From Acetobacteraceae bacterium B3987 (GTDB taxonomy: Bacteria > Pseudomonadota > Alphaproteobacteria > Acetobacterales > Acetobacteraceae), in contig JAFNMF010000001.1 in assembly GCA_026537415.1 (NCBI GenBank), positions 1,015,112 to 1,079,111 of the forward strand: DNA of 64,000 nt, read 5' to 3'. Of this stretch, positions 7,688 to 22,387 are shown piece by piece. The translations under genes and the position numbers were made by a program. How positions within the stretch are numbered: the first letter of the stretch is position 1; each line of letters begins with the position of its first letter. The notes under the pieces were generated by a model. That model had not been told where the DNA came from and ran no database searches. It saw only the letters and a list, made by a program, of their open reading frames with translations.

Positions 7688-10618
7688 TCAGGCTTTCCGT
7701 TTTTTGCCACTTTTCTTGACGGTTTCTTCCGGTCTGGTGCTTGTGGCAGGTGAGCCAGCGGCCAGCATGGGGGCAAGGAAGTGTCCGGTATGGCTCTCCT
7801 TGCAGGTAGCGATGTCTTCTGGCGTGCCGGTGGCGACAACCTGCCCACCGCCTGCACCGCCTTCCGGCCCGATGTCGATTACCCAGTCTGCCGTCTTGAT
7901 GAGATCGAGATTATGCTCGATGACCAGCACCGTATTGCCCTGTTCCACCAGAGCATGAAGAACATTCAGCAGCTTGTGGACGTCTTCGGTATGCAGCCCG
8001 GTTGTGGGTTCATCCAGCACATAGAGGGTCCGGCCCGTGGCACGGCGGGCGAGTTCCTTGGCGAGTTTCACACGCTGGGCCTCACCACCGGAGAGGGTGG
8101 TGGCCTGCTGGCCAAGGGCCACATAGCCCAGCCCTACCTGCTGGAGGATGGAGAGGCGGTCCGCAATGCGGGGCACGGCACTGAAGAATGGCACGGCCTC
8201 ATCCACCGTCATGGCCAGAACATCCGCAATGGATTTGCCCTTGAACTTGATCTCCAGCGTTTCCCGGTTATAGCGGGCACCTTTGCAGGTATCGCAGGTG
8301 ACGAACACATCCGGCAGGAAGTGCATTTCAATCTTCAGCACACCGTCACCCTGACAGGCCTCGCAGCGTCCCCCCTTGACGTTGAAGGAGAAACGTCCCG
8401 GCTTGTAGCCCCGTGCCTTGGCCTCCGGTAGTTCGGCAAACCAGTCCCGGATGGGGGCGAAGAGGTCCGTATAGGTAGCGGGGTTGGAGCGTGGCGTCCG
8501 CCCGATGGGGGACTGGTCGATCTCGATGATCTTGTCGAGCTGCTCGGTCCCTTCCAGCCGTCCATAAGGCAGGGGGACAGCAGCAGATTTCATGATCTGC
8601 CGGGCCAGCCCTTTGTAGAAGGTATCGGTAATCAGTGTGGACTTCCCGCTGCCGGAAACACCCGTTACGGCAATGAAGGTACCAAGCGGGAACTTTACAC
8701 TGACATTTTTGAGGTTGTTCCCTTTGGCCCCGTGGATGCTGACCCAGCGTTTACTCTTGCGGCGTGTGGTAGGGACGGGGATGCCCCGACGGCCTGCCAG
8801 CCACGCGCCGGTCAGGCTGTCGGGATTTTGGGCGACTTCCTCCGGTGTGCCACAGGCGATGACATGCCCGCCCTGTGTTCCGGCACCCGGCCCCATGTCG
8901 ATGAGATAGTCCGCCTGCCGGATGGCATCCTCATCATGTTCCACGACAAGGACGGTATTGCCGAGATTTCGCAACCTTTCCAGCATGGTGAGCAGGCGGG
9001 CATTGTCCCGCTGGTGCAGCCCGATGGAGGGTTCGTCCAGCACATAAAGGACACCCGTCAGGCCGGAGCCGATCTGTGAGGCCAGCCGGATGCGCTGGCT
9101 TTCCCCGCCGGAGAGCGTGCCGGAACTGCGGGAGAGGGTGAGGTAATCCAGTCCTACACGGTCAAGGAAGTGCAGCCGTTCGGTGATTTCCTTGAGGATG
9201 CGCCGGGCGATTTCAGCCCGCTGGGGTGTCAGGCTGGCCTCCACGGTGCTGAACCATGAGAGGGCTTCGCTGATGGTCAGCTCCGAGGCTTCGGCGATGT
9301 TGCTGTCATTGACCTTTACGCAGAGGGCTTCCGGCCGCAGGCGGGCACCGTGACAGGCGGGGCAGGGCATGGCGGACTGGTACCGGCCCAGAGCCTCCCG
9401 CACATGGACGCTGCTGCTCTGCGCCAGACGGCGTTGCAGATGGCTGATGATGCCCTCGAAGGGCCGGTTGATGGTGTAGGTCTTTCCCTTGCCATCCTGA
9501 TAGGGAATGCTGACAGGCTCGGCAGCACCATTCAGGAGGAACTGGCGGGAGCTGTCCTTCAGCTTGTTCCAGGGCGTGTCCAGCGTTTCTCCGCAATGGC
9601 GGGCAAGGGCGGCGAGGGTCTGGTCAAAGAGCGGGTCCTGCTCATTCCGCCACGGAGCAATGGCTCCTTCCCGCAGGGTCAGGCTGTCATCGGGGATGAT
9701 GAGATTGGGGTCGAAATGCGTCTCCGTCCCCAGCCCGTCACAGGTTGGGCAGGCCCCCATCGGCGCATTGAAGGAGAAAAGGCGGGGTTCCACACTTTCC
9801 AGCATGAAGCCGGATTCCGGGCAGGAATAGCGGGAGGAGAAGGAGGCTTTCAGAGGTTCACGTTCTTCCCCGCTGCGGAGGACTTCCTCAACGGAGGCCA
9901 GACCGTCCGAGAGTTCCAGAGCGGTTTCAAAACTGTCAGCCAGCCGGGTCTCCACACCCTCTTTCAGCACCACACGATCCACCACGACATCCACATTATG
10001 GCGTGTCTTGCGGTTCAGTTTTGGAGCGTCGCTGATCTCGTAGAGCGTGCCATCAATCCGCACACGGGCGAAGCCACGGCGGGTCAGCTCGGCCAGTTCC
10101 TTCGCACAGTCGCCTTTGCGGTCCCGCACGACAGGGGCCAGCAGCATGAGCCGTGTGCCGGTGGGCATGGCCATCACACGGTCCACCATCTGGCTGATGC
10201 TCTGGGCCTCGATGGGCAGGCCGGTAGCCGGGGAGTAGGGTACCCCCGCCCGTGCCCAGAGCAGGCGCATATAGTCGTGAATTTCGGTGATCGTGCCGAC
10301 CGTGGAGCGTGGATTGCGGGAGGTCGTTTTCTGCTCGATGGAAATGGCCGGGGAAAGACCTTCAATGGAGTCCACATCCGGCTTGCCCATCAGCTCCAGA
10401 AACTGGCGGGCATAGGCGGAGAGGCTTTCCACATAGCGACGCTGCCCCTCAGCATAGATGGTGTCGAAGGCGAGGGAGGACTTGCCGGAACCGGACAGGC
10501 CCGTCAGCACGGTCAGTCTGTCCCGGGGGATGGTGACATTGATGTTCCGTAGATTATGCGTACGGGCACCACGGACGATGATGTGGCTTGTGCTGGCGGG
10601 AGGGGGTGTATCTGTCAC
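7688..10618 (-). CDS. uvrA: Excinuclease ABC subunit A
   Basis: 976 residues, usual length. UvrA finds DNA damage in nucleotide excision repair and loads UvrB. Both ATP-binding halves are present: Walker [11 protein letters not shown] near residue 39 and [10 protein letters not shown] near residue 655, each with an ABC signature ([12 protein letters not shown] and [12 protein letters not shown]). Zinc-binding cysteines are visible in [14 protein letters not shown] and the second finger CEACQG...CDTCKG. The start codon is GTG at 10618. A Lys/Arg-rich tail (SGKKRKA) ends the protein. It is divergent from ssb, with a 139-base region between. Confidence 0.97.
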
Positions 10619-13922: not shown

Positions 13923-15386
13923 ATGCTGACATATGATGGTCTGAAATCCCTGCCGCAGAATGTGGTTGGTCCCGCCTATGATGTACGCAAGGTGACATCG
14001 GGCATCGTGCATTTTGGTGTAGGCAATTTCTTCCGTGCCCATCTGGGTTACTATGTGGACCGTGTTCTCGCACTGCCAGACCAGCAGGGCTGGGGTATTA
14101 CTGGTGTTGGCCTACGCTCCGGGGGGAACTCCGACAGGAAAGCAGAAGAGTTTCAGGCACAGGAAGGTCTATATTCCCTGACGGAAATTGCTGCCGACGG
14201 TAAGGCAGAGATTCGTGTTATGGGCTGTTTGCGTGGGTATCTTCAGGCACCGGATGAGCCGGAAAAGGTGCTTGCCCTTCTGGCGGACAAAGCCACGAAG
14301 ATTGTCTCCATGACTATCACGGAAGGTGGTTATAATATTGATGAAACAACCGGGGAGTTCCGTACATCCCTTCCGGCTGTTCAGAAAGATCTCGCCGACC
14401 CGAAGAACCCCAGAACCATTTTTGGCTTTGTGGTCGAAGGGCTGCGCCGCCGCCGTGAGGCTGGTCATGGTGGTCTGACCATCATGTCCTGCGACAATCT
14501 GCGTCACAATGGTGATGTGTCCCGCAAGGCGTTTGTTGGCTATGCCCGTGCTGTGGATGCTGATCTGGCAGCCTGGATTGAGCAGAATGTGACCTTCCCC
14601 AATGCAATGGTGGACCGCATTACGCCGTCTGTTTCGGATGAAGATAAAGCTAAACTGAATGAGCGTAGTGGATTGGATGACCTTCAGCCGTTGCTGTCTG
14701 AGGATTTCATCCAGTGGGTGATAGAGGATAAATTTGCAGCAGGCCGTCCTGCTTTCGAGAAGGTCGGTGTTGAGTTCACCGATCAGGTGAGTGCCTATGA
14801 ACATGCCAAGATACGGATGCTCAATTCCAGCCATCTTATTCTCAGTGCTGCGGGTATGCTGCTGAATCTCAAGTTAGTGGATGAGGTTCTGCGTGAACCC
14901 CGTGTGCATAAGTTTGTGGATTCTGTTCTGGAAAAGGACGTGATTCCTACCCTTAAGGCACCGCCGGGTGTGGACCTGCATAAGTACAAAGCTACTCTGC
15001 TGACTCGTTTCTCCAATGCGGCGATGGCGGATCAGGTAGCCCGTATTGCTTCCGATGCTACGTCCAAGGCACAGGTGTTCTGGACGGAAACAGTGCGTGC
15101 GGTGTTGGAAGGGGGCCGGGATCGCACACGGATCGTATATTGCATGGCTCTCTTGTTGGAGTTGCTGCGTGGTAAGAACGAAAAAGGTGAGAAAATTGCG
15201 CTTCAGGAGCCTTTTTTGAGCGAAGAGCAGCTGAAGATTGCTGCCTCTGATGACTTGTCAGAGTCGATCAACCTGCCTGCTTTTGATGGTTGGCGTGATT
15301 TGTTGACTCCTGAGATTAAGAAGGAAATTGCTCATAATAGGGAACTGATTCGCAAGGAAGGTGTGCTGTCTAGTCTGCCTGAGTGA
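13923..15386 (+). CDS. Mannitol 2-dehydrogenase (long-chain polyol dehydrogenase)
   Basis: 487 residues, normal for this NAD(P)-dependent family, which interconverts mannitol and fructose in the cytoplasm. The N-terminal nucleotide-binding part starts IVHFGVGNFFRAHLGYYVD. The catalytic set K296, N301, H304 (AKIRMLNSSH) aligns with K295, N300 and H303 of the Pseudomonas fluorescens enzyme. In acetic acid bacteria such enzymes use fructose as an electron sink or recover NADPH. Mannonate or fructuronate reductases share the fold, but the context has no hexuronate genes. A strong terminator follows at 15428. Confidence 0.9.
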   Translation: MLTYDGLKSLPQNVVGPAYDVRKVTSGIVHFGVGNFFRAHLGYYVDRVLALPDQQGWGITGVGLRSGGNSDRKAEEFQAQEGLYSLTEIAADGKAEIRVMGCLRGYLQAPDEPEKVLALLADKATKIVSMTITEGGYNIDETTGEFRTSLPAVQKDLADPKNPRTIFGFVVEGLRRRREAGHGGLTIMSCDNLRHNGDVSRKAFVGYARAVDADLAAWIEQNVTFPNAMVDRITPSVSDEDKAKLNERSGLDDLQPLLSEDFIQWVIEDKFAAGRPAFEKVGVEFTDQVSAYEHAKIRMLNSSHLILSAAGMLLNLKLVDEVLREPRVHKFVDSVLEKDVIPTLKAPPGVDLHKYKATLLTRFSNAAMADQVARIASDATSKAQVFWTETVRAVLEGGRDRTRIVYCMALLLELLRGKNEKGEKIALQEPFLSEEQLKIAASDDLSESINLPAFDGWRDLLTPEIKKEIAHNRELIRKEGVLSSLPE

Positions 15387-15427
15387 GGCTGTTACGAGTG
15401 GCTGTTGTTTGATTATGAGATGGAAAA

Positions 15428-15452
15428 GGGAGGCGTAGGCCTCCCTTTTTTT
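15428..15452 (+). terminator. Terminator after mannitol 2-dehydrogenase
   Basis: GGGAGGC (15428-15434), loop GTAG, GCCTCCC (15439-15445), then seven T. A classic intrinsic terminator that isolates the CRISPR leader from upstream transcription. Confidence 0.92.
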
Positions 15453-15626
15453 ATGTTTACGAGTCTCCTGTGGATAAAATTGTTTTTGGATTGTCTATGA
15501 GGGAGAGACTTTTTTTGATGGGCAAAGAAAGAAAATTTTCCTTGAAGAGATTATTAAAATTATATTTAAGTTGGTAGGTTCTTTGACAATTAAAAAAGAC
15601 TTATATTACTTACGGTTACAACAAGT
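15453..15626 (+). promoter_or_regulatory. AT-rich CRISPR leader
   Basis: 174 bases between the terminator and the first repeat, much richer in A and T than the surrounding genes. TTGACA at 15583-15588 could be a -35 box; the nearest -10-like TATTAC (15604-15609) gives only a 15-base spacer. Leader placement on this side fits the repeat orientation (handle GATGAACCG toward the spacer on the + strand) and the decayed last repeat at the other end. No certain IHF site was identified. Confidence 0.75.
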
Positions 15627-18600
15627 CTGTTCCCCGCCTACGCGGGGATGAACCTCACTGGCGACGATCTAACTCGCAAAGAACACCCTGTTCCCCGCCT
15701 ACGCGGGGATGAACCGCTCCCAGACGAACCATGCGTAGGCTATGGAGCCTGTTCCCCGCCTACGCGGGGATGAACCGCTCTTTTGCTAGACGTGCTGGCC
15801 CCCCTCCTTCTGTTCCCCGCCTACGCGGGGATGAACCGTTCCTATCCGACGTTCGGAAAGGGCGGAACATCTGTTCCCCGCCTACGCGGGGATGAACCGT
15901 GTTAGGTCGGAGGGCAGGGAAGGGAGCGGGCCTGTTCCCCGCCTACGCGGGGATGAACCGCTGCCGTCCGTCCCCCAGAGATGGGCTATTACCTGTTCCC
16001 CGCCTACGCGGGGATGAACCGGACGACCCGGCAGGTTATGCCGCTGGCCATCCCTGTTCCCCGCCTACGCGGGGATGAACCGGCAACATCTCACACAATA
16101 AAAAAAGGCCCGTTCTGTTCCCCGCCTACGCGGGGATGAACCGGCCGTGGCGGGTGGAATCATGACTCTGCCTGCCTGTTCCCCGCCTACGCGGGGATGA
16201 ACCGGCTCCAATGAGCCATTTTTTATCTGCCAGAGTCTGTTCCCCGCCTACGCGGGGATGAACCGGCGGCTTTCCTTTTCTCTTTGGGCTAGGGATCCTG
16301 TTCCCCGCCTACGCGGGGATGAACCGAACGTGCGAGGCCAGACCGCCACGCTATGCCGCTGTTCCCCGCCTACGCGGGGATGAACCGTCTCGAGAATGTT
16401 CCAAATGACTCTTACCCAACTGTTCCCCGCCTACGCGGGGATGAACCGAGCAATTTCGGCCCCGTATCAAACAACAGCCACTGTTCCCCGCCTACGCGGG
16501 GATGAACCGGGTAAAGTGGGATGTACGGAAGGGAGAAAAAACTGTTCCCCGCCTACGCGGGGATGAACCGCGGAGGGGATAAGGGTAGGGGATATTCCTA
16601 ATCTGTTCCCCGCCTACGCGGGGATGAACCGGTCCGATTTCTCCAGTAGTGAGAGCGGCGATGCTGTTCCCCGCCTACGCGGGGATGAACCGATGCACTG
16701 GCACGGCGCAGGGATGCGTCTGGACTGTTCCCCGCCTACGCGGGGATGAACCGGTGCGATGCCGGGTGTTCAGGTTAGATGTGCACTGTTCCCCGCCTAC
16801 GCGGGGATGAACCGCTCGGAAGACCGGCTCGCCACCATTTAGGTCGCTGTTCCCCGCCTACGCGGGGATGAACCGAGCGGATACCAGAGATCAATGCGGC
16901 CGGTGCTCTGTTCCCCGCCTACGCGGGGATGAACCGTCATCACACAGCGTAACATCCTCGTCACTGGCAACTGTTCCCCGCCTACGCGGGGATGAACCGT
17001 CACTGCCTGCTAGGGCCTGTACCTCGATCTGCTGTTCCCCGCCTACGCGGGGATGAACCGCAATAGAATTATTTTTTCATCACTGCTTCAGTCTGTTCCC
17101 CGCCTACGCGGGGATGAACCGCGCTGCCCGGTCTGGTGCAGTCCGTACACGATCTGTTCCCCGCCTACGCGGGGATGAACCGGTGCTGCGCATCCAGCCG
17201 GAACACCCGGCAACCTGTTCCCCGCCTACGCGGGGATGAACCTCCGGATTTTCGGCCACCCACTCGTAAAACGTCCTGTTCCCCGCCTACGCGGGGATGA
17301 ACCGAGCTTAATGGCGAGCTGACCCTGAAAGGGTTCCTGTTCCCCGCCTACGCGGGGATGAACCGCGCATTGATAGCATCCCGCCATCGTGTTGACGCTG
17401 TTCCCCGCCTACGCGGGGATGAACCGATTGTTCTGTCGCCCACCGAATCATAAACTCACTGTTCCCCGCCTACGCGGGGATGAACCGACAGTTTTTCACC
17501 GACCTGAACCAGCCGACAGCTGTTCCCCGCCTACGCGGGGATGAACCGTTGCCCCCCGTGGTGACGGTTCGATCTCACGACTGTTCCCCGCCTACGCGGG
17601 GATGAACCGACTGCCCACCCTGCCGGGTGCCAAAATTGATGCTGTTCCCCGCCTACGCGGGGATGAACCGGAGTTCCACATCGCAGACATGAAGAGCGAG
17701 CGCTGTTCCCCGCCTACGCGGGGATGAACCGCAGCAGGTATTTTCTGACCTAGAGCCTTCTATCTGTTCCCCGCCTACGCGGGGATGAACCGGCACAACA
17801 GACAGTATCTTTGCTCCAGCCCATCTGTTCCCCGCCTACGCGGGGATGAACCGCTGATCGTCTCAGGTCGAGCGCAATCAGCCATCTGTTCCCCGCCTAC
17901 GCGGGGATGAACCGAAATACGGCAGTCTGCTCTTATTGAGCGAGAGCTGTTCCCCGCCTACGCGGGGATGAACCGCTCACCCCAAAGAAATCGCTGAGGG
18001 TATTGCTCTGTTCCCCGCCTACGCGGGGATGAACCGACGTGAATACGACAGGTCATAGCCCGTGGGGACTGTTCCCCGCCTACGCGGGGATGAACCGCCA
18101 CAGGGTGTTGTTGATTTTTCCTACCCCGACTGTTCCCCGCCTACGCGGGGATGAACCGGGGATTTCCTCTTTGGTCAGCAAAGCCGCATGCTGTTCCCCG
18201 CCTACGCGGGGATGAACCGCTCTCATTTGGGGCGTATCCAGAGGTCAGCCTCTGTTCCCCGCCTACGCGGGGATGAACCGAACTTTTTGACCTGAGACCG
18301 AGAAGAATCTCGGCTGTTCCCCGCCTACGCGGGGATGAACCGCATCTCCAATGCCAATTTTTACGCTTGCTGCTCTGTTCCCCGCCTACGCGGGGATGAA
18401 CCGGAGACAGCCAAATATTCGGCGGGAGTGTTGTCCTGTTCCCCGCCTACGCGGGGATGAACCGCACGGTACATCCCCACATCAGTAGGGATGGAACTGT
18501 TCCCCGCCTACGCGGGGATGAACCGAGCGGGATTACCCGCCTGCAAATCCAGAGCGTCTGTTCCCCGCCTACGCGGGGATGAACCGACTGCCCGTTGCAG

Positions 18601-20599
18601 TAACCCCCATGCCTTTTTCTGTTCCCCGCCTACGCGGGGATGAACCGAATATGTGATTGAGCAGTGGAATAAACGAAGCCTGTTCCCCGCCTACGCGGGG
18701 ATGAACCGGACGGATTACGACTCCGGAAGCCTTGGAGCTGCTGTTCCCCGCCTACGCGGGGATGAACCGGCTGAGCGCCGCATGAAAGCCACCTTAATTA
18801 TCTGTTCCCCGCCTACGCGGGGATGAACCGAGTTAACCACTAAACATGGCTGGGAATATCAGCTGTTCCCCGCCTACGCGGGGATGAACCGAGATTGGAG
18901 GATTCTTCCTCTTTTTTATAATACTGTTCCCCGCCTACGCGGGGATGAACCGGCCGTAAAAGCGTGGAAAGAAAAGGGGGTGCGCTGTTCCCCGCCTACG
19001 CGGGGATGAACCGTTGTGCGGGCGGCTATCATGCAGACGATCGCTCTGTTCCCCGCCTACGCGGGGATGAACCGCTGCCGGAGACTCGTTCTGTATCGCA
19101 CCTGTGCTGTTCCCCGCCTACGCGGGGATGAACCGTTTCCTATTACCCGCCCGATAACCCGGACTTGCTGTTCCCCGCCTACGCGGGGATGAACCGCTGC
19201 GCTGGCAGCTGACCAGCCGGAGCGAGTTCTGTTCCCCGCCTACGCGGGGATGAACCGTCATCAGTTGCCTCAATGATTGTCCCCTCATTCTGTTCCCCGC
19301 CTACGCGGGGATGAACCGGGAATCTTCCTTAGTTTGCTGTCCCCAATCAGCTGTTCCCCGCCTACGCGGGGATGAACCGGCAAACTGTAACGGGTGCCGT
19401 GGGGCATGTTCCTGTTCCCCGCCTACGCGGGGATGAACCGCAGCTGATGTGGCTGTTATTCAGGAATATGGACTGTTCCCCGCCTACGCGGGGATGAACC
19501 GGTGTGTCTTGACGGCCTCTTCATGCAGTCCGCCTGTTCCCCGCCTACGCGGGGATGAACCGAAGGAACTGGCATTACAATTTGCTAGTAATCACTGTTC
19601 CCCGCCTACGCGGGGATGAACCGCAGGACGCTGAGATGGAACGGGCAGCGGCCCGCTGTTCCCCGCCTACGCGGGGATGAACCGGCACGGAAACCTATTA
19701 TAAGGCGGCGTTCGGTCTGTTCCCCGCCTACGCGGGGATGAACCGCTGAATATCCAGCCCATGCGCAACGCCCTCTTCTGTTCCCCGCCTACGCGGGGAT
19801 GAACCGACAGGCCTCATCATCTCCCTACTGATCGCCGGCTGTTCCCCGCCTACGCGGGGATGAACCGTACGAACTTTTCAGAGGTGGGGAGGGCCTGCTC
19901 TGTTCCCCGCCTACGCGGGGATGAACCGCAGATTATTGATAATTTTCTTTGTTTTGTCAGCTGTTCCCCGCCTACGCGGGGATGAACCGAATTATAATAA
20001 ATGAACTATATGTTGTGTTTTCTGTTCCCCGCCTACGCGGGGATGAACCGTCTGGTGAATAGCTTGGATGCCGCCCTCGAAGCTGTTCCCCGCCTACGCG
20101 GGGATGAACCGCCAGAACTCAAGCCATGCCCGTTCTGCCCTAACTGTTCCCCGCCTACGCGGGGATGAACCGTATCCCTTGTTTCCCCTACAACTGAGGA
20201 AAGGCTGTTCCCCGCCTACGCGGGGATGAACCGGGGAAGCGTACCAGCAGGCTAATATGCGTATGCTGTTCCCCGCCTACGCGGGGATGAACCGGCGCAA
20301 TCGGGAACGGGCCAGATACCGTCCGGCTGTTCCCCGCCTACGCGGGGATGAACCGCAGCCGCCCAAAGCCCCGGGAAAACGGGGCACCTGTTCCCCGCCT
20401 ACGCGGGGATGAACCGTTCTGGCACGCTGTCTTGCCGCTCAAAACTGACTGTTCCCCGCCTACGCGGGGATGAACCGCAGGAAGATATCGAGCGGGCCGA
20501 TGCGCTACTCTGTTCCCCGCCTACGCGGGGATGAACCGGCCTGTCTGCGTAGTAGAGACAAACACAGCCTCTGTTCCTCGCCTATGCGGGGATGAATTG
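15627..20599 (+). CRISPR. Type I-E-like CRISPR array, 82 repeats and 81 spacers
   Basis: The 29-base repeats begin CTGTTCCCCG and end GCGGGGATGAACCG; CCCCGC and GCGGGG form a 6-bp hairpin around CTAC, closely matching E. coli type I-E repeats. Repeat starts step by 61 bases except twice: spacer 22 (16937-16970) is 34 bases and spacer 44 (18281-18313) is 33, all others 32. Repeats 1-81 appear identical apart from the last base: repeats 1 (15655) and 27 (17243) end in T instead of G. Repeat 82 (20571-20599) has four C-to-T changes, as expected of the leader-distal end. Transcription should be left to right, giving crRNAs with a 5' handle AUGAACCG. No cas gene lies within the window on either side, so the effector proteins must be encoded elsewhere or be missing. 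The high repeat identity and large size argue for past active acquisition and maintenance. Confidence 0.98.
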
Positions 20600-21046: not shown

Positions 21047-22387
21047 TTACGGCCCACCCCGGGTCTGCCAGAGCCACTCCAGAGCTTCGGGGAGGGTCTG
21101 CTCTATGGTGGGGCCGTCCACATGCTGGGCATTGCGGGAGAAGATGAACTGGTAATCATAGCCTTTATCCGCCAGAGCACGGGCCAGGTTTTCGCCCGCC
21201 AGAACCCAGTCATGCATTCCATCTGGCATGGGGCGGACGGGGTAGAAGAGGTCCTGATCGCCCATTTCGTACCAGATGTGCAGCGGTGCCCTTGGGGCCG
21301 CCGGTATGAGGGCAGCTCCCGGCTGGGGCGGGGTGGCCTGTGGTGTACCGGCCCAGGGGGAATGAAGCTGCCATCCACCACCGGGTAATGCCGGGTTGTG
21401 AGGCCATTGCTGGTTGACCAGAGAGGGTGAGTAGGCCAGCACCCGGTGATAGAGATTGGGCCGGAACCATGCCATCGCAAAGGCTGCCGCTCCACTGGAG
21501 CTGAATCCCATGGTGGCCCGTTCTTCCGGATTATGGGACAGGGTGACGCTGGCTTTCTGTTCCACGAGGGGCAGGATGTGCGCTTCCACCCAGTCTGCAT
21601 AATCGCCGGACATGGTGTCATATTCCCGTCCACGTTCGCTGCCCTGAGCATCACCACCGCCTGAACCGACGCCAATTACGATCATGGGGGGGATACGGTG
21701 GTCTTCAATCAGCCTGTCCACGAGAGAGAACAGGTCACGCCCCGGATAGATGCCATCATTCCCTCCATCACCGAAGATCAGGAATGGCAGGGGATGGTCA
21801 GCAGGCGTGTTGGGGGGAACATACACATCTACCGTGCGGGTCCACGGGGCTGGATGGGCACCCGGTACGTTCAGGATGGAAGGATCACCCGGCTGACTGG
21901 TGGACACATTCTTCATGCCGATGGCACAGGGTTCCGGTTCGTCCCGTACCATGCCCGGATTGTACCCGCTGGTAGGGGATGAGGTCAGCGTAAAGCTGAT
22001 GAGCCGTCCTCTGGCAGGACGGATGCCCTGCCATTCAGGAGGTAGGGTGTGGGTGGGGCCAAGAATGTAATTGCCTGTTCCGTTTACCGGCGGAAGCGTC
22101 GCATCCGGCAGGTCGGTTGCCTGCGGATAGAGCGGATTATGAGGGTCATGAACCGGCATGGCACCGGCTCCGCTCAGGCCAGATGTGTTGATGTAGAATG
22201 GCTTCTGTGGGTCTGTCGTGTTGGCCTGTGGGGGCTGGAGAGCTTCCAGCGGTTTGCAGTCGGCAGATTCAGTCTGGGCCTGACAGGGGCTGATGAAATG
22301 TCCGAGGGGCAGCATCAGGGCACTGGCAAGGAGGCCATGCTTCCAGAAGCGCAGTAACTGATGGCGGAATGATGAATCTACAGACAT
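21047..22387 (-). CDS. Secreted esterase, alpha/beta-hydrolase (esterase D/Fes type)
   Basis: 446 residues with an N-terminal signal peptide ending near SPCQAQ, so a periplasmic or secreted protein. The hydrolase domain starts near residue 190 (VDVYVPPNTPADHPLPFLIF) and shows the nucleophile elbow MGFSSSGAAAF and a C-terminal HVDGPT histidine. The organisation is that of the putative esterase family that includes enterochelin esterase and the mycolyltransferase fold. An N-terminal region of about 150 residues, rich in Pro and Asn, is larger than usual. The substrate is unknown; no siderophore genes are nearby. Confidence 0.78.
   Translation of the reverse strand: MSVDSSFRHQLLRFWKHGLLASALMLPLGHFISPCQAQTESADCKPLEALQPPQANTTDPQKPFYINTSGLSGAGAMPVHDPHNPLYPQATDLPDATLPPVNGTGNYILGPTHTLPPEWQGIRPARGRLISFTLTSSPTSGYNPGMVRDEPEPCAIGMKNVSTSQPGDPSILNVPGAHPAPWTRTVDVYVPPNTPADHPLPFLIFGDGGNDGIYPGRDLFSLVDRLIEDHRIPPMIVIGVGSGGGDAQGSERGREYDTMSGDYADWVEAHILPLVEQKASVTLSHNPEERATMGFSSSGAAAFAMAWFRPNLYHRVLAYSPSLVNQQWPHNPALPGGGWQLHSPWAGTPQATPPQPGAALIPAAPRAPLHIWYEMGDQDLFYPVRPMPDGMHDWVLAGENLARALADKGYDYQFIFSRNAQHVDGPTIEQTLPEALEWLWQTRGGP

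Follow-up and report, generated by a model that had tools for sequence, protein, structure and literature searches.

How can a CRISPR (clustered regularly interspaced short palindromic repeats) array of 82 repeats be kept in good order where no cas gene lies beside it? The question is raised by a stretch of 64,000 nucleotides from Acetobacteraceae bacterium B3987 (the window, by which we mean that whole stretch), which carries such an array on its + strand at 15627-20599. Our answer, to which we assign a probability of about 0.9, is that this is a working second array of a bee-associated Bombella, served in trans by a type I-E cas operon on another contig of the same genome, C23.

The C23 operon is complete. 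It occupies C23:38751-47345 and comprises cas3 (851 aa), cse1 (503), cse2 (175), cas7 (406), cas5 (230), cas6e (234), cas1 (316) and cas2 (101), and all eight proteins match type I-E models; cse1 falls just below the cut-off when truncated at the end of the locus, and its whole open reading frame (ORF) matches. The catalytic residues of Escherichia coli Cas1, presumably E141, H208, D218 and D221, are kept in the alignment with the C23 protein, and alignment with solved relatives demonstrated that Cas3 retains its catalytic motifs, which we take to be those named HD, GKT, DEVH and QR-GR-RH. Adjoining the operon is an array of 76 repeats and 75 spacers (C23:34078-38681), the first repeat of which lies 69 bp from the cas2 stop. 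Its repeat differs from that of the window by two loop bases, the tetraloop being CCAT on C23 and CTAC in the window, both on the same predicted 7-bp stem.

The sequence-only reading had posed an alternative, namely a cas operon located in another part of the genome or an array that outlived it, and had suggested a search for cas genes and for a second array with the same repeat. The first half of the alternative stood, and the search returned both the operon and an array with a near-identical rather than the same repeat (the tetraloop differs, and sometimes position 29). The second half, that the array is a relic now out of use, we regard as most unlikely. No cas gene was found near the window array and few of its spacers match known phages, as would be expected of a relic, but the genome holds an intact I-E operon with a near-identical repeat, and the window repeats are uniform across 5 kb.

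The array and its flanks are composed as follows.

13923-15386, + strand: mannitol dehydrogenase gene (mtlD), the upstream flank and the marker of a site conserved in relatives
15555-15626, + strand: AT-rich leader block of about 70-75 bp, abutting repeat 1 and resembling the leader of the cas-adjacent array
15627-20599, + strand: the CRISPR array, from the list of repeats and spacers and the 7-bp stem fold
20571-20599, + strand: terminal degenerate repeat with tetraloop CTAT and 4 mismatches in the repeat list, the old end of the array
21047-22387, - strand: esterase gene, the downstream flank, behind an ORF of 89 aa

The repeats are 29 bp long and 79 of the 82 equal the consensus exactly; the first and the 27th deviate at position 29 alone, and the last carries the 4 mismatches. 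A last repeat with the same loop change is found in Bombella pluederhausensis. The 81 spacers are 32 nt long in 79 cases, 33 nt in one and 34 nt in one, and these spacers of about 32 nt, together with the 29-bp stem-loop repeat, place the array in type I-E by form. In such arrays the newest spacer usually sits on the leader side, and the AT-rich leader before repeat 1 together with the degenerate repeat at the far end therefore marks spacer 1 as the newest. Across the genome, 159 sites match the repeat at no more than 3 mismatches, 81 in the window, 76 on C23 and 2 on a third contig, C21, and the same pattern read backward matches none; the window repeat is therefore not a product of chance.

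No homologue of the genome's eight Cas proteins was detected in the 64-kb window (best tblastn E value 0.11, with a positive control of 100% on C23), and no cas model matched any of the 10 ORFs between 7688 and 26311 to which the profile scan was limited. A PADLOC match to Mads (331 bits) at 7688-10618 was rejected as a false positive of the defence library, since the protein is UvrA. The window lies on C28 (1.11 Mb) of a 2.04-Mb genome in 30 contigs, and the array stands 75 kb from the nearer contig end, so no neighbouring operon is hidden by an assembly break. The sequence-only reading had named a cas operon just past such a break as the case that would overturn it, and this is not what the assembly holds. 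Its description of the locus was accurate in the number and near-identity of the repeats, the number of spacers, the flanks, the absence of cas genes from the window and, now also by virtue of the operon on C23, the assignment to type I-E.

On the arrangement that we propose, the single C23 operon would serve two chromosomal arrays; the window array would be transcribed, and Cas6e processing, adaptation and interference would act on it in trans. Cas1-Cas2 would recognise the leader of about 75 bp at both arrays and insert spacers on the leader side, the first repeat being duplicated at each acquisition, which would keep each array uniform. Transcripts of both arrays would form the same 7-bp hairpin, at the base of which Cas6e would cut, and Cascade and Cas3 would use the CRISPR RNAs (crRNAs) of both against phages. 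E. coli K-12 follows the same plan, in that one I-E operon serves CRISPR-I and CRISPR-II, which have similar leaders and lie tens of kb apart; here the two arrays are on separate contigs and at least 75 kb apart.

The leaders bear directly on this proposal. In all nine genomes that have both arrays, the two leaders resemble each other over the approximately 75 bp that precede repeat 1 (local alignment scores of 31-47, against maxima of 14-20 in 500 shuffles), whereas bases 80-155 upstream are unlike (scores of 5-12, shuffle maxima of 11-14). For the window genome the values over 500 shuffles are 38 against a maximum of 16 for bases 0-75, and 9 against 14 for bases 80-155. At the cas site this block makes up the whole gap between cas2 and repeat 1.

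The two arrays also keep separate repeat identities, the tetraloops differing in eight of these nine genomes; the exception is Bombella favorum (L017 and L108), with CCAT in both. Its mtlD leader is still of the mtlD type, and a mutation of repeat 1 or an exchange between the two arrays may have reset the repeat. A lone repeat of B. favorum has no counterpart in the window genome. Among all repeats, 23 deviate from their array consensus within positions 1-28, and 14 of these are the last in their array, which fits the type I-E mode of acquisition, in which each new spacer comes with a copy of the first repeat.

These observations also bear on a narrower explanation, that crRNAs of the window array are made and used but new spacers enter the cas-adjacent array only. 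Position 29, which in type I-E derives from the protospacer-adjacent motif (PAM), is not G in 2 of 82 window repeats and in 12 of 76 repeats on C23 (Fisher p 0.004), so the acquisition histories of the two arrays may differ, and the available text of a study of Bombella CRISPR systems (PMC12282179) leaves open which array gains spacers. Weighing on the other side are the conserved leader block and the relative lengths of the arrays, those at mtlD being longer than those at cas in eight of nine genomes with both and equal to them in B. intestini. We consider this explanation very unlikely.

The C23 operon holds the genome's only copy of cas1, and a genome-wide search for Cas9 gave no match, with a weak control (4 of 14 detected, none above the cut-off). 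This touches the proposal that the window array once belonged to another, lost CRISPR system, or to a Cas9 system like those of other Bombella. Type II-C does occur alongside I-E in most of the strains described in PMC12282179. The window repeat is nevertheless of I-E type and two loop bases from the I-E array of its own genome, and this, with the single cas1 and, for what the control allows, the Cas9 result, leaves such an origin a very small probability.

Within the operon (C23:40000-47345, corresponding to L013:2001-9346), cas3-cas6e are far more diverged from relatives than cas1-cas2, at 63-79% against 82-87% DNA identity to B. favorum per 300-bp bin. The mtlD neighbourhood shows 82-92% identity to B. 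favorum, and the divergence steps at the cas6e/cas1 border. Across nine relatives, protein identity is 48-69% for Cse2 and 92-97% for Cas1. The divergence of cas3-cas6e could stem from exchange of the module or from an arms race with anti-CRISPRs.

The taxonomic setting was established by a scan with MtlD, which places the genome in Bombella (95% identity to B. favorum, 94% to B. intestini), and the site was compared in 10 Bombella-group loci (Bombella, Parasaccharibacter and one metagenome-assembled genome, MAG) and three from Saccharibacter. An array stands 198-260 bp behind mtlD in 8 of the 10 Bombella-group genomes, with 48, 29, 28, 44, 55, 21, 61 and 103 repeats, the longest being that of Bombella sp. 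ESL0385. The sequence-only reading had called so large an array away from its cas genes unusual; in Bombella it is not, given these eight genomes and the earlier publication of such arrays. The right flank of the site has changed in B. saccharophila, P. apium and ESL0385, since in these the esterase lies outside the stretch fetched.

The presence of the array was compared with that of cas1. Among the 13 genomes searched, cas1e is found in nine, namely the eight with an mtlD array and the MAG (L025), and no cas1 match was obtained in B. dulcis or in any of the three Saccharibacter. In this set, an mtlD array was never seen without cas1e, and the Bombella without a cas1e match has no spacers left: the mtlD array of B. 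dulcis is collapsed, a kept leader being followed by one repeat of the terminal type (L020:11715-11743). This too speaks against a relic, as in the Bombella without a cas1 match the array is down to one repeat. A search for the old cas site of B. dulcis led to the end of a contig that carries a piece of the flanking receptor.

The other two kinds of site are empty. The three Saccharibacter have no repeats and no array at the mtlD-esterase junction, and the MAG, which has cas1e and a cas-adjacent array, has an mtlD-esterase gap of about 255 bp without an array. A tree of MtlD and HAD places the MAG outside the 10 Bombella rows, at a fork with support of 85/97 that we draw open. Since the leaders are alike over about 75 bp and not beyond, and the junction is empty in Saccharibacter and the MAG, the simplest history would be one in which the mtlD-esterase gap, in an ancestor within the Bombella lineage, received a copy of leader and repeat from the cas-adjacent array; the alternative is loss in the MAG.

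The array is of a kind already described. Ganote et al. 2025 (mSystems, PMC12282179) report canonical and 'orphan' I-E arrays in Bombella, one beside cas and one far from it, with different tetraloops, and the window array belongs with the orphans, having no cas gene found nearby and the loop CTAC where the array at cas has CCAT. According to the same text, spacers are mostly strain-specific and match prophages, the largest array has 101 spacers, and the systems were concluded to be active. The genome studied here looks like another species than the strains of that paper, its MtlD being nearest to that of B. favorum. The main text of PMC12282179, supplements aside, does not contain the terms 'PAM', 'mannitol', 'synten', 'phage-encoded' or 'phage-borne'; as far as that text goes, the mtlD site and its empty counterpart in the MAG, the copied leader, the PAM, the collapsed array of B. 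dulcis and the mini-arrays of a prophage described below are additions of the present work. For B. intestini LMG 28161, two arrays of 28 spacers each on different contigs and a third of 3 spacers were reported (PMC5112900). Both 28-spacer arrays were recovered here, and the in-trans relation is not mentioned in the portion of that paper on which we draw.

We then turn to what the spacers record. Altogether 727 spacers were compared, one of 728 pieces (from ESL0385, of length 0 owing to overlapping repeat calls) having been dropped, and the target set comprised 193 prophage and phage stretches (2.49 Mb). Among 19 arrays, 24 pairs of spacers share at least 22 matched bases, 15 of them within one genome, 5 in the P. 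apium group and 4 elsewhere. None involves the window array, and one involves the cas array of the same genome (with mtlD spacer 34 of B. favorum, on the opposite strand). As it shares no spacer with its sisters, the window array has turned over since they parted, a result that counts both against a relic and against an array closed to new spacers. Internal block duplications occur in B. pluederhausensis (spacers 35-37 equal 51-53, L022) and ESL0385 (66-69 equal 70-73, L026).

Phage loci were matched at no more than 3 mismatches by 21 of the 727 spacers, and reversed spacers gave 0 matches at up to 6. The two kinds of array match at similar rates, 14 of 462 at mtlD (3.0%) and 7 of 265 at cas (2.6%). 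AAG stands upstream of 9 of the 21 targets (background 1.6%, p 2e-11), comprising 5 of 14 for mtlD arrays and 4 of 7 for cas arrays. Extending the motif to AAG, ATG, GAG and AGG, which we take to be the E. coli type I-E PAM set, covers 15 of the 21 (background 6.1%, p 3e-14) and 9 of the 14 from mtlD arrays, the set having been chosen after a first look at the matches.

For the window array itself, the comparison with phages that the sequence-only reading had suggested succeeded in part, giving two matches at this threshold to phage or prophage, neither behind an AAG-type motif.

15717-15748, + strand: spacer 2, the second-newest, 3 mismatches to phage contig L282 (IMG/VR), GTG upstream
17854-17885, + strand: spacer 37, 3 mismatches to a prophage terminase gene in a genome of the same genus (G022, L148), TAA upstream

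The cas array of the same genome has no match at this threshold among its 75 spacers. At up to 6 mismatches the figures are 5 of 81 and 8 of 75, with a PAM of the set in 2 and 2. L282 and L147/L148 represent phage kinds that both arrays match; genes for integrase, repressor, portal, major head and sheath are present in the L147/L148 kind. A Bombella-type prophage of G022, targeted by spacers of several species, bears a BstA-type abortive infection gene (L147:12397-13356). As probes for prophages, the portal family PF04860 found none in 11 of 11 genomes, and the terminase family PF03237 matched in 10 of 11. Neither array has a full-length self-target in the window or in nine other stretches of its own genome, the longest exact match being 16 nt. 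Compared whole with annotated phages, the window array gave two weak matches, one in 11 pieces to a Saccharomonospora phage (72%) and one of 37 bases. A further 77 plasmid records matched the whole array; among the 20 listed, the many-piece matches look like other I-E arrays and say nothing of targets, and they were set aside.

Several points weigh against service in trans and the history proposed for it. Two of 81 window spacers match at 3 mismatches or fewer, and their upstream GTG and TAA both lie outside the PAM set. A scan of 15350-15700 for a consensus promoter found none. B. dulcis is the one genome on which the link between missing cas genes and a missing array depends. When five Cas proteins are combined in a midpoint-rooted tree, the MAG falls with the P. 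apium group and not outside Bombella, and its missing array could be a loss.

The same machinery may have further clients. The two repeat matches on C21 lie in a prophage that has genes for integrase, terminase, portal and head proteins and carries the following units outside the window.

C21:12628-12717: array A, 1 spacer (locus L135 from 12628)
C21:23687-24081: array B, 6 spacers (locus L136 from 3687)
C21:26535-27051: array C, 8 spacers (locus L136 from 6535)
C21:37155: lone repeat, an I-E-like hairpin (locus L136 from 17155)

The three arrays consist of I-E-like repeats at 61-bp spacing, and each is preceded by a conserved 5' element of the GGAAACAGGACTAGA type, the host leader being absent there. 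In arrays A and B and at the lone repeat, the final repeat continues into another hairpin and a T-rich stretch, terminator-like in the fold of the phage copy in L151. In array C both sides of the stem are altered, CCCCGC/GCGGGG becoming CCCCAC/GTGGGG, and the eight bases that close the repeat, presumably the crRNA handle, are variable; in array B they are identical to those of the host. No cas gene stands alongside these arrays, and the genome-wide cas search covered cas1, found on C23, and Cas9.

The 15 spacers of this prophage were compared with 325 loci (4.54 Mb), a reversed control giving nothing below 9 mismatches. Two match other Bombella phages at no more than 5 mismatches, both behind AAG: spacer C8 matches L151, a phage related to the carrier, with 3 mismatches, in a gene whose counterpart on C21 matches a major head family, and spacer B2 matches L148, a second phage kind, with 5. 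The carrier's own C8 site also has 3 mismatches but stands behind CGG, and spacer C1 matches the carrier at 6 mismatches behind AGT. A match of 19 nt with 1 mismatch between spacer B1 and cas1 (600 shuffles gave at most 17) was set aside, as it has no PAM and concerns one of 15 spacers. Small as the numbers are, the pattern fits a prophage that would borrow the host's Cas proteins against rival phages.

Virus-borne mini-CRISPR arrays without cas genes, with host-like repeats and spacers against related viruses, have been described (Medvedeva et al. 2019, PMC6858448; review PMC11656645), as have stand-alone repeats in the same phages. Judging by the text of these papers available to us, the C21 arrays are like them in their viral context, in having no cas gene found alongside and in their host-like repeat. 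They are unlike them in that repeats vary within one array with matched stem changes and that no host-type leader is present. With 1, 6 and 8 spacers in one prophage they also exceed the 1-2 spacers by which PMC6858448 defines such arrays, so that two of the three 'work like' rather than 'are' mini-arrays.

Arrays B and C occupy 7.3 kb of C21 where L151 has a short gap, and the 5' element of the C21 arrays recurs at a lone repeat of L151. Lone I-E-like repeats occur in other phages or prophages of the Bombella type (L151:7783, L148:16708, and on the minus strand L149 at 15861 and L328 at 58), some with the C21-type 5' element or end hairpin; they may be emptied arrays or Racr-like decoys. Those of L151, with its 5' element and terminator-like hairpin, and of C21:37155 resemble, in sequence, the Racr units of Camara-Wilpert et al. 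2023 (PMC10651486), and differ from those units, as far as that text describes them, in that the lone-repeat unit elsewhere in the C21 prophage ends arrays that bear spacers. The exact C21 repeat is absent from IMG/VR, and the C21 terminal unit was found in its own genome only among 120 genomes of the family (3 of them Bombella). The 17-base end motif occurs in IMG/VR in 4 stretches on 3 contigs, with the repeat alongside on one contig.

We give about even odds to a wider proposal, in which one I-E operon would have three kinds of client: its own array; the array in the mtlD gap with its copied leader; and the three cas-less arrays of the C21 prophage, which would turn the Cas6e and Cascade of the host on rival phages of Bombella and, through a changed PAM, avoid self-targeting.

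A cas-less array as large as that of the window can be a normal component of a complete CRISPR-Cas system. Bombella now allows a test of which of the two arrays gains spacers and of the reason for the frequently greater length of the distant one: each genome has two arrays, whose crRNAs can be told apart by their loops, and a single set of Cas proteins, and B. dulcis serves as a natural control without array and cas1. Should the prophage arrays be functional, the Cas proteins of a single cell would be contested by two memories, that of the host and that of the prophage.

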